A stretch of 64,000 nt of DNA from an uncultured Dehalococcoidia bacterium (GTDB lineage Bacteria > Chloroflexota > Dehalococcoidia > Lucifugimonadales > GCA-2712585). Where the stretch lies: positions 1,783,697 through 1,847,696 of the forward strand of contig OY282371.1 in the NCBI GenBank assembly GCA_958295715.1. Reading direction: 5' to 3'. Made by a program: the position numbers and the translations under genes. Below, in pieces: positions 21,260 to 31,575 of the stretch. Each line of letters starts with the position of its first letter. The stretch's first letter is position 1. The notes beneath the pieces were generated by a model. That model did not search any database. It worked only from the letters and a program-made list of their open reading frames with translations, and had not been told where the DNA came from.

Positions 21260-21605
21260 CTCTCCCATCGTCATTCCCGCGCCCGCCCCACTCGCTCCTC
21301 TCCCGCCACCCATCCGCAATTCCCGACTCTACCCCTATGCGTCATTCCCGCGTAGGCGGGAATCCATCTTTCCCTATTATCTCTAACGCCATCATCATCC
21401 TCTGACGGCAGATTGAGGCGGCAGGCTGGGCCAAGGGCATGGGAGCGACACATTCGCCGTTCTGCCATGCAACCTTCCTGGATTCCCGCCTGCGCGGGAA
21501 TGCCGGATAGGAGAGGGGCGGCAAGCCGAAGCTTCCAACGCAGAACCAACGCTCTTCAAAACAAAGTGGGCGCGCGCCCTTCCCGCGCAGGCGGGAATGA
21601 CGGGA
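21260..21605. repeat. REPIN-like composite repeat block
   Basis: A palindrome at about 21343-21363 and its inverse at about 21481-21502 enclose the conserved core (CTAACGCCATCATCATCC, GGCGGCAGGCTGGGCC, GAGCGACACATTCGCCG). A reversed second-type module (ACGCTCTTCAAAACAAAGTG, GGGCGCGCGCCC) ends with a palindrome at about 21580-21600. Nothing else is seen in 21175-21619. Confidence 0.85.
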
Positions 21606-21619
21606 GAGGCCGGTGCCGG

Positions 21620-23699: not shown

Positions 23700-24115
23700 C
23701 GCCCCATTCCGTCATTCCCGCGCAGGCGGGAATCCATCTTTCCCGATTCCCTCTAACGCCATAGTCCTCTCTTGACAGAACGCCGGGTTGAGGCGGCAGA
23801 TTGGGCCAAGAGCATGGGAGCGACACATTCGCCGTTCTGCGATGGGGCCTTCCTGGATTCCCGTTTTCACGGGAATGACGGAAAAGAGGCGGGAGCGCGT
23901 GTTGGGGCGCGGTTCCCCCGTCGCAACGCTGGCAGGGAGGGATGGATTCCCGCCTGCGCGGGAATGACGGGAGGGGGGCGGGAGTGAGGGGAGAGGGGTG
24001 ACGCCGGGATTCGGGGCGCTGGCTTGCGGATGAGGCGGCAACGCCGACGCTCCTCAAAACAAAGTGGGCGCTCGCGCCCTTCCCGCCTGCGCGGGAATGA
24101 CGGATAAGAGGGCGG
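23700..24115. repeat. REPIN-like composite repeat block
   Basis: Composite unit from the palindrome at about 23714 to its GAAA/TTTC-loop inverse at about 23860-23880, with the full core between. A third module (GGAGCGCGTGTTGGGGCGCG, GATGGATTCCCG) is at 23890-23970 and a second-type module (GCTCCTCAAAACAAAGTGGG) is at 24048-24100. The remainder of 23591-24232 holds no gene I can support. Confidence 0.85.
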
Positions 24116-24901: not shown

Positions 24902-26173
24902 ATGATGACTTTTGCCCTCCACCCGCGGCGCCTGGCCGTCCTGCTATCGCTGGCGACCGCCGCCCTCATCACGGCCTGCGCCGGCGCGGCGACTCCTCCG
25001 GCCACCCCCGCGACGGCCAGCGCCTCCACGCCTCAACCGGCCAGGACATCCGTCGCCACGCCCAGCCCCACGGCCATCCCGGCGCCAACCACACCGTTGG
25101 CCACGCCATCCACGCCGCGTCCCACCCAACCACCAACCACGACTCCAACAGCCACGGCCACGCCGCGCCCCACCGCCACTCGACCGGCGCCCACTCCCAC
25201 ATCAACCCCCGCCGGCCCCGACTCCAACCTCAAAATAGTAACCCTTCTGCCCCGCGACGCCATACCCGCCATCCTTGAACCGTCCTTCCTCAGCGCGGCG
25301 GAGGCGTCGGAGCAGTACATGCCCACTGAGCAGGTGCTGGGCGTATCCATCAACGGCCGGCACAAGGCCTACTCCGTCCCATACCTCAGTTCCCGCGAGA
25401 TAGTCAACGACCGGTTGGGAGGCGTGGCCATCGCCGCCACCTGGTGACCCCTCTGCTTTACGGGCATGGTCTTTGCCCGAGACACCTCAGACCAGACCCT
25501 CACCTTCGGCGTGTCGGGCAAGCTCATAATGAACGCCCTGGTCATGTATGACCACCAGACGGATACCTTATGGAGCCAGTTCCTCAGCCGCGCCGTTCAA
25601 GGGCCTTTGGAAGGAACCACCTTGGAGCTTCTGCCGGCCCTCCAGACCGACTGGGCCACCTGGCGGGAGTTGCATCCCGACACCCTGGCCCTCGACAAGG
25701 GCGGGGCCTCTAGCCGCGACCCCTATGACACCTATTACAGCCTTGACGACGCGGGCGTTCTCGGAGAGACCAGGCAGGACGACCGCCTCCGCGCCAAGGA
25801 GTTTATCGTTGGGCTGGAACAGGAGGGAATGGCCAAGGCCTATCCCTTCAGCGTCCTCAACGACTCCCCCATCGTCAACGACGTTTTCGGGAACCTTCAG
25901 ACGCTGGTGGCCTTTGACGCAGGATCCGCCGCCGGAGCGGTCTTCAACCGCGCCCTCAACGGCGACGTCCTAACCTTTGACCTGCGGGACGACGGGCCCG
26001 GCGCGGCCCTGGCCATGGTGGACAGGGAGACGGGGACAGTGTGGAGGGCGTTGACGGGGGAGGCCATCGAAGGCCCCCTCCTCGGCAAGACCCTCCAGCA
26101 GATACCCACCACGCTATCATTCTGGTTTGGCTGGAAGGACTTCTACCCCGATACGGAGGTCTACGGCCAGTAG
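24902..26173 (+). CDS. DUF3179 lipoprotein with in-frame UGA at the CPLC cysteine (probable selenoprotein)
   Basis: The frame runs from ATG 24902 (or 24905) to TAG 26171-26173 with one in-frame TGA at 25445-25447: 423 residues if the TGA is read through as Sec182. The N-terminus is a lipoprotein signal (lipobox ITAC, Cys26) followed by a Pro/Thr/Ala linker to about residue 107. The rest matches DUF3179: VLGVSINGRHKAYSVPYLSSREIVNDRLGG before the TGA, and PLC-x4-VFARDTSDQTLTFGVSGKL, MYDHQTDTLWSQF and LHPDTLAL after it. Family members read T-Y-C-P-L-C here; this gene reads T-W-TGA-P-L-C, so the TGA replaces exactly the first Cys. A SECIS-like hairpin follows (25461-25479). Codon use and frame are continuous on both sides, so this is not a frameshift. 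DUF3179 function is unknown; a UxxC motif suggests extracytoplasmic redox chemistry (inference). Automated callers would split it into 24902-25447 and 25466-26173. Confidence 0.85.
25445..25479 (+). promoter_or_regulatory. Bacterial SECIS-like element after the DUF3179 UGA
   Basis: TGA 25445-25447 is followed 13 nt later by a 6-bp stem CGGGCA (25461-25466) / TGCCCG (25474-25479) with loop TGGTCTT (25467-25473). The loop contains GGUCU, starting 21 nt after the UGA; in E. coli fdhF the loop GGUCU starts 19 nt after. The second loop base is G, as required in the bacterial SECIS consensus. Confidence 0.75.
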
Positions 26174-26662: not shown

Positions 26663-26967
26663 GCCCCGCGGCGCGCCTCAGCCGGGCGAAGGGCCGCGCC
26701 TCCTCAGAGCCGTCAGGGAGGACAGGCGGGAATGACGGAGGGGGGCGGGAATGCGGATAGTGGGGCCAGAAGCCTCCAACACAGAACCGGCCCTCTTCGA
26801 AACTTACGTGGGCGCACGCGCCCTTCCCGCCTGCGCGGAAATGACGGAAAGGGGGCGGGAATCCATCCCCCACCCAAAATCCTGATTGGCGATGAGCGAC
26901 AGCCCCGGCGCCGCGCCTCAACCCGGCGAGGGGCCGCGCCTCCTCAGACCCGCCACGGAAGACAGGC
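26663..26967. repeat. Repeat insertion flanked by a 65-bp direct duplication of the pyrD tail
   Basis: 26663-26727 and 26903-26967 align without gaps over 65 bp at a constant 240-bp offset, about 80% identical; the right copy includes the last codons of pyrD. Between them are degraded palindrome fragments and a reversed second-type module (CTTCGAAACTTACGTGGGCG, GCACGCGCCC, GCGCGGAAATGACGG; about 26725-26865). The rest of the 360-bp gap has no gene. Confidence 0.7.
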
Positions 26968-28111: not shown

Positions 28112-29413
28112 TTAAATCCCCTCCTCGTACACCCCAAAGGTGAAGGCGAACATGGCGAAGTCGGTGGAGTTGGAGCTCAGCTTCAGGCTGTACTCTCCGT
28201 ACTCCGGCGCCTCGACCACGGCGTACAGACGCGGTTGGTCCACCACCAAGAAGCTCCTCCCGTCGTCCTCAATAACCACGTCCTCGCCCCTGTTGTCCTC
28301 CGTCAGGGGCTTGTCATCCAGGGTCACAAGGACCTTGAAGGTCTCCTCCTCCTCGGGGGTCAAGACCACGTTCACGCTCTTGGCGGAGAACCGCAGCAGC
28401 ATGTAGTCCTCGTAATTCTCCGTCTCCGCTCCGTGGCGCAGGCTCTCCCTCTCCGCAAGCCATGACCCGTGCAGGTACAGCCTATGCGAGTCGCGATGGC
28501 CCGTATCCTCATAAACCGTCACCACGTCCTTGGAATTGCAGTACTCCGTATTGGCGACCAGGCTGTTGGCGTAGATGCTGTACAGGCTGCAACCCCGCTC
28601 ATAGCCGCCGTAAAGCTCGGAGGTCACCTCCGCGCCGATGGTGTTCCGAAAGGAGGAGTCAAGGGTCTGGTTGGGAGCGAACATCGCCTCGTCCCCCGAC
28701 AGGTCTCTGCCGGTTTCCATGATGAGCTTGCGAATCTGCTCCTCCGTCTCGTCGTAGGCCCCCTCGCCAAAGTGCTGGTACCGGATGACCCCGTCCTTGT
28801 CTATGAGATACTTGGCGGGCCAGTACCTGTTATCGTAGGCGCGCCAGGTCCTGAAGTTGTTGTCCTGCACCACCGGCCACCCTATGCCGTAGTCCGCCAC
28901 CGCCCCGCGCACGTTCTCCAACTCATGCTCAAACCGGAATTCCGGCGTATGGACGCCTATTATCACCAGTCCATCGTCGGCGTACTTGGAGTGCCACACC
29001 TTCAGGTACGGCAGCGTGCGGATGCAGTTAACGCAGGTGTAGGTCCAAAAGTCGATGAGCACCACCTGGCCCCTCAGCCCCTCAATGGTGAGCGGGTCCG
29101 AGTTCAGCCACGCCTGGGTTCCCACCAGTTCCGGGGCCATCGGCCCATCGACCTTGGGCGCGACGGTGGGCGGCGGCGATGACGGGGTTGGACTTGGCGT
29201 CGCCGTCGCCGTGACGGTCCCTGCGGCAGTTGTCGGCTCGGCGGTGGGACTGGGAGACGGCGCCGCCGTGGCAGTGGCCGCCGGGGCCCCCCCGCTGGCA
29301 GTCGATGCCGCCGTGGGCGATGGCGTCGGCTCCTCAGACCCGCAGGCCGCCCCCAGGGCCAGGATAAGGCAGGTCAACACGCCTCCGAATACCAGACCGA
29401 TTCTTCTCTTCAT
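28112..29413 (-). CDS. Thioredoxin-like lipoprotein with C-terminal DipZ-type beta domain
   Basis: 433 residues. The lipobox is LGAAC (Cys24), followed by a Ser/Thr/Pro/Ala linker (about 28-88). A thioredoxin-fold redoxin domain (about 90-245) has active site WTYTCVNCIRTLPYL (Cys127, Cys130) and HTPEFRFEHE. A C-terminal domain (about 260-433) matches the layout of DipZ/CcdA-associated extracytoplasmic thioredoxins (LYLHGSWLAERE, VNVVLTPEEEETFKVLVTLDDKPL). It probably reduces or exchanges disulfides outside the membrane; no CcdA/DipZ membrane partner is adjacent. Both active-site positions are ordinary cysteine codons, unlike the UGA gene at 24902. Upstream gap 29414-29528 shows nothing notable. 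Confidence 0.88.
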   Translation of the reverse strand: MKRRIGLVFGGVLTCLILALGAACGSEEPTPSPTAASTASGGAPAATATAAPSPSPTAEPTTAAGTVTATATPSPTPSSPPPTVAPKVDGPMAPELVGTQAWLNSDPLTIEGLRGQVVLIDFWTYTCVNCIRTLPYLKVWHSKYADDGLVIIGVHTPEFRFEHELENVRGAVADYGIGWPVVQDNNFRTWRAYDNRYWPAKYLIDKDGVIRYQHFGEGAYDETEEQIRKLIMETGRDLSGDEAMFAPNQTLDSSFRNTIGAEVTSELYGGYERGCSLYSIYANSLVANTEYCNSKDVVTVYEDTGHRDSHRLYLHGSWLAERESLRHGAETENYEDYMLLRFSAKSVNVVLTPEEEETFKVLVTLDDKPLTEDNRGEDVVIEDDGRSFLVVDQPRLYAVVEAPEYGEYSLKLSSNSTDFAMFAFTFGVYEEGI

Positions 29414-31091: not shown

Positions 31092-31214
31092 GCTGCCCCC
31101 CTTAGCCCGCAAATTCTGCCGGCGCAAATCGTATCAGATGAAAGCGACGCAGCGCAACCGGAAAACACGCCTCCATTGGTTGATACCGCCCGCCCCAACC
31201 CGTCGTTCCCCTTT

Positions 31215-31575
31215 TTTACCGTCATTCCCGCGTAGGCGGGAATCCAGGAAGACCCCATAGCAAGACGGCCAATGTGTCGCTCTCACGCCCCCGGCCAGCC
31301 TGTCGCCTCAACCCGGAGTTCCCCTTTTTTACCGTCATTCCCGCGTAGGCGGGAATCCAGGAAGTCCCCAACGCAGAACGGCCAATGTGTCGCTCTCACC
31401 CCCCCCCGGCCCAACCCGGCGGTCTGTCAAAGAAAGGGCGATGGCGCCAGAAGCGAATTAAGAAAGATGGATTCCCGCCTTCGCGGGAATGACGGAAAGG
31501 GGAGGCTGGAATGGCGGAGGCGCGGCGCGGGAATGACGAGAGGGGGAGGCGGGAATGACGGGTGGGTGGGCAACG
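31215..31575. repeat. REPIN-like composite repeat block (reversed orientation, two units)
   Basis: Palindromes at about 31225 and 31340 (GTAG loop), each followed by the reversed core (CCAATGTGTCGCTCTCACGC), then GATGGCGCCAGAAG and GATGGATTCCCGCCTTCGCG at 31440-31495. Further diverged palindrome fragments run to 31575. The first unit lacks the right-hand half of the core. Nothing gene-like is seen in 31092-31627. Confidence 0.85.

Follow-up and report, generated by a model that had tools for sequence, protein, structure and literature searches.

We find that a DUF3179 gene in an uncultured Dehalococcoidia bacterium very probably recodes an in-frame UGA, at position 25445, as selenocysteine (Sec), as judged by comparative sequence analysis. 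The gene lies in a stretch of 64,000 nucleotides (hereafter, the window) and is a further member of an already known selenoprotein family. A single TGA at residue 182 is the sole interruption of a 423-codon frame (24902-26173), and translation thus bears out the original prediction of a frame that is intact apart from this codon. The TGA stands in the context ATW-U-PLC. Without read-through, the gene shows as two open reading frames (24902-25447 and 25466-26173), which are the two false genes that standard gene calling was expected to produce. The Pfam profile of DUF3179, PF11376, matches residues 118 to 418, on both sides of the TGA, and confirms the proposed family identity (E = 3.7e-83; 279.7 bits versus a gathering cut-off of 27; profile positions 1-292 of 292). 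With the window protein and six of its relatives as queries, NCBIfam gave one chance hit and nothing for DUF3179. The features of the gene are as follows.

24902-26173, plus strand: probable DUF3179 selenoprotein gene, 423 amino acids, UGA read as Sec at residue 182 (translation; PF11376, E = 3.7e-83)
24902-24979, plus strand: putative signal peptide with a lipobox-like I-T-A-C at residues 23-26 (by eye from the translation)
24980-25213, plus strand: Pro/Thr/Ala/Ser-rich linker, 87% P, T, A or S (composition)
25322-25690, plus strand: repeat 1 of DUF3179, which carries UPLC (hhalign versus repeat 2, E = 5e-35; models with mean pLDDT 96.6)
25445-25447, plus strand: in-frame TGA, the probable Sec codon and U of UPLC (U in 48, C in 23 and S in 1 of 72 homologues)
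25454-25456, plus strand: C185, second Cys of UPLC and proposed resolving Cys (nearly invariant alignment column, C82)
25461-25479, plus strand: bacterial SECIS-like hairpin CGGGCAT-GGTCT-TTGCCCG (covariation; synonymous recoding; covariance model, E = 1.8e-12)
25784-26170, plus strand: repeat 2 of DUF3179, with no CxxC (hhalign versus repeat 1)

Evidence for selenocysteine at the UGA codon

Four lines of evidence indicate a real selenoprotein gene: the alternation of TGA and Cys at one column, the covariation of a downstream hairpin, its excess pairing over a synonymous-recoding null, and the presence of Sec machinery in the genome. We searched 60 related genomes and obtained matches in 43, among which many homologues have exactly one internal TGA (some of the weaker matches were to the P/T-rich linker only). 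In an alignment of 73 DUF3179 segments, the position of the TGA is occupied by U (48 segments), C (23), S (1) or a gap (1), and at other positions there are just two isolated cases of an internal TGA. The UGA therefore replaces the first Cys of CPLC, and the column is a Cys column in the family, both as had been proposed. One in-frame stop is also what gene decay or misassembly would produce. It is nevertheless extremely improbable that this is a normal DUF3179 gene with Cys, in which the TGA arose by pseudogene mutation or through a sequencing error, given that the 48 homologues with TGA come from many genera and assemblies and always have it at the Cys column. Furthermore, a homologue of the same genus aligns across the TGA with 66% identity, and selection on the hairpin is seen in TGA genes only. 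We reject this explanation on the basis of the 48 homologues and the hairpin selection. Separately, one DUF3179 Sec gene (L025, genome G049) does appear to be frameshifted into two overlapping frames, as a decayed gene or through an assembly error.

The predicted hairpin was confirmed, and the signature of selection on RNA was found in Sec genes only. Its arms, CGGGCA (25461-25466) and TGCCCG (25474-25479), enclose an apical loop with GGTCT at 25468-25472. If the T of TGA is numbered 1, positions 17-23 form pairs with positions 29-35 around a 5-nt loop, in which G25 (25469) is invariant across the 48 Sec genes and U26 occurs in 43 of them. In an alignment of 38 Sec sequences, 92.9% of cells were paired versus 72.6% after shuffling, a flattering figure because this alignment omits ten Sec genes, most of which form few pairs in that register. 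Cells in which both partners had changed numbered 45 in the same 38 sequences, compared with 15.2 in shuffles (0 of 500 shuffles reached the observed value), and the covariation score was 0.454 versus 0.103 in shuffles and at most 0.046 in slid versions of the hairpin. In six loci with few pairs in this register (L029, L032, L034, L084, L090 and L091), the hairpin appears by eye to be shifted by one position.

To separate RNA from protein constraint, each gene was also recoded synonymously, with all 48 Sec genes used. Sec genes had 5.81 of 7 pairs compared with 3.86 under recoding (z = 14.6), whereas Cys-containing homologues, all from relatives of the window's genome, had 3.09 compared with 3.01 (z = 0.4); these z-scores are not probabilities, since related sequences are not independent. 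TGA or Cys at the exact column, together with hairpin selection at the RNA level only in Sec-containing genes, places recoding far beyond chance. A covariance model gave E = 1.8e-12 at the hairpin, which was its sole strong site in both the window and the genome; note that this sequence is itself part of the model. The Rfam family RF00031 (SECIS_1) was silent in the window's genome, which is uninformative because it was also silent in all 14 control genomes, and a permissive Rfam scan of 25350-25600 gave chance-level matches only. In Escherichia coli fdhF, the SECIS element is a hairpin shortly downstream of the UGA with a 5-nt GGUCU apical loop. The DUF3179 hairpin is alike in position and loop, but the distance from UGA to loop is about 2 nt greater and its stem sequence is different.

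The genome to which the window belongs (2.40 Mb, 96.6% complete) encodes all four components of Sec machinery that the original prediction had listed as a check. These are tRNA-Sec (73.7 bits, also called as tRNA-SeC by ARAGORN), SelA (E = 1e-162), SelB (above cut-off) and SelD (E = 3.5e-110). The UGA at 25445 would accordingly be decoded by SelB and tRNA-Sec, and the hairpin, which begins 13 nt past the codon, would direct insertion. Codes in which TGA means Trp exist in some bacteria. Here, a genome-wide reassignment of UGA (e.g., to Trp), or non-specific read-through, has a negligible probability and was rejected: the column is Cys (once Ser) and never Trp in other homologues, the full Sec machinery and tRNA-Sec are present, and the SECIS-like hairpin is confined to TGA genes. 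The selD gene (G000:C1:70120-71043, L045) also has a TGA in frame, within the motif CAGUASK and ahead of a predicted hairpin, and is a candidate selenoprotein gene itself.

Distribution of the Sec form and relation to the known family

The gene had been proposed to found a probable new selenoprotein family. That claim fails, since two reviews (PMC9312934 and PMC13188914) already include the DUF3179 domain-containing protein (PF11376, UxxC/T) among prokaryotic selenoprotein families and RefSeq names the product of a plasmid gene 'DUF3179 domain-containing (seleno)protein'. In their entries for the family, both reviews cite Zhang & Gladyshev 2007. OS_HP1, listed with UxxC in a 2008 GOS paper, may belong to the DUF3179 family as well. 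Our gene shares with the listed family the Pfam domain and a UxxC motif that begins with Sec. However, the tables in PMC9312934 and PMC13188914 have one family entry with one example accession, whereas we find several paralogous Sec clades within a Dehalococcoidia/SAR202-type order of Chloroflexota. No paper in the literature searched contained both 'selenoprotein' and 'SAR202'. What we add is thus the spread of Sec clades in this order, the Sec/Cys exchanges, the hairpin signal, the internal duplication and a predicted fold. The family, which is little known, is thus common among these uncultured Chloroflexota and occurs there in multiple copies. In the gene described here, standard gene calling turns a real UGA-recoding event into two false genes.

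Among named genomes, the Sec form was found in Chloroflexota (Dehalococcoidia, SAR202 cluster), and the Cys form in the archaeal (Nitrososphaerota) and Acidobacteria members that we examined. The Cys-containing proteins of Nitrososphaerota and others share the domain and have YCPLC at the same column; they differ in having Cys for Sec, and the Cys homologues tested, from relatives of the window's genome, have no excess hairpin pairing. Sec motifs vary among homologues (WUPLC, YUTLC, YUIKC, YUVLC and WUPIC), which indicates that Sec is not limited to one close clade. On a tree of 109 rows, the Sec/Cys label changes at least seven times, with six changes forced by well-supported branches. Because U was replaced by C before tree building, the topology is not driven by the Sec/Cys column, and the label changes point to repeated exchange between Sec and Cys in DUF3179. 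Two homologues depart from the usual pattern. In L021 (genome G016), adjoining DUF3179 domains at 2989-2945 and 2205-2161, both on the minus strand, have TGA at the same column, in YUPLC and WUPLC. In L071 (genome G047), Ser-P-I-S replaces C/U-P-L-C, so that this homologue probably has no redox motif.

Predicted fold and possible function

The predicted lipoprotein-type N-terminus was supported by a lipobox match: MMTFALHPRRLAVLLSLATAALITAC fits the pattern [LVI][ASTVI][GAS]C (by eye; LITAC), and the product is a probable surface lipoprotein. DUF3179 consists of two tandemly duplicated halves (E = 5e-35 and 33% identity by hhalign). Both repeats, in AlphaFold models with a mean pLDDT of 96.6, are predicted to resemble the Rieske beta fold without the Rieske ligands. 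Compared with Rieske-fold ferredoxins and oxygenase domains (e.g., 3gce and 3dqy), the repeats align over about 91-94 residues with Z of 7.8-8.4 and rmsd of 2.6-2.9, a middling match, as Z-scores near 8 can arise from a widely shared arrangement. For 3gce, repeat 2 gave Z = 8.4 (rmsd 2.9, 93 residues) and repeat 1 alone gave Z = 7.8 (rmsd 2.8, 94 residues); the matches listed for repeat 1 were Rieske-type proteins. Foldseek E-values were not significant (0.14). Profile comparison with Rieske proteins was weak (hhalign probability at most 16%), and a sequence search of solved structures returned none related to DUF3179. Unlike Rieske [2Fe-2S] proteins, DUF3179 does not have the CxH...CxxH ligand pattern: the invariant and nearly invariant columns include no CxH/CxxH ligands, no His, and only the Cys of UxxC. 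Rieske-domain matches number 33-59 in the relatives G009, G012, G013 and G023 versus one in the window's genome.

Alternation of Sec with Cys in a UxxC motif usually marks a catalytic redox residue, and we consider it reasonably probable that the DUF3179 protein is an extracytoplasmic selenol/thiol redox lipoprotein. The protein would be exported and probably lipid-anchored, and its mature form would consist of two tandem Rieske-like beta folds without [2Fe-2S] ligands, with UPLC placed at a beta-hairpin turn in repeat 1. U182 would attack a disulfide or an oxidized substrate, and C185 would be the resolving residue. In the modeled domain, U79 and C82 are located where strand 72-79 turns into strand 84-89. 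A C-P-x-C at such a hairpin turn recalls metal-binding knuckles, and metal-handling proteins are among the listed selenoprotein families; the main functional rival, which involves the same recoding, is that UxxC is a metal site (e.g., for copper or zinc) on a knuckle-like turn. We regard this as rather unlikely, as the motif has just two candidate ligands, the family has no further invariant Cys or His, and repeated use of Sec would favor redox chemistry. The predicted fold is a structural lead on the possible role of DUF3179. Within the redox reading, we tentatively raise the possibility of a distinct architecture, in which a tandem Rieske fold that lost or never had its FeS ligands carries UxxC/CxxC on a beta-hairpin turn, with several Sec paralogues expanded in SAR202-type Chloroflexota for extracytoplasmic redox.

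Gene neighborhood

The DUF3179 gene stands alone in the window, with a divergent neighbor of the 6-O-methylguanine DNA methyltransferase type and a convergent neighbor of the glyoxalase family. Neighbor clustering over 38 DUF3179 loci gave no convincing recurrent partner or operon: the largest cluster was the DUF3179 gene itself and the next an apparent antisense open reading frame. About 2 kb downstream (28112-29413, minus strand) is a gene for a P/T-rich lipoprotein-type protein with an AhpC-TSA/thioredoxin-like domain (CVNC) and a C-terminal Thioredoxin_10 domain. Dispersed palindromic repeats around TTCCCGCCTGCGCGGGAATGACGG also occur near the DUF3179 gene, in both orientations, at 21332-21611, 23702-24111, 26723-26855 and 31191-31571.
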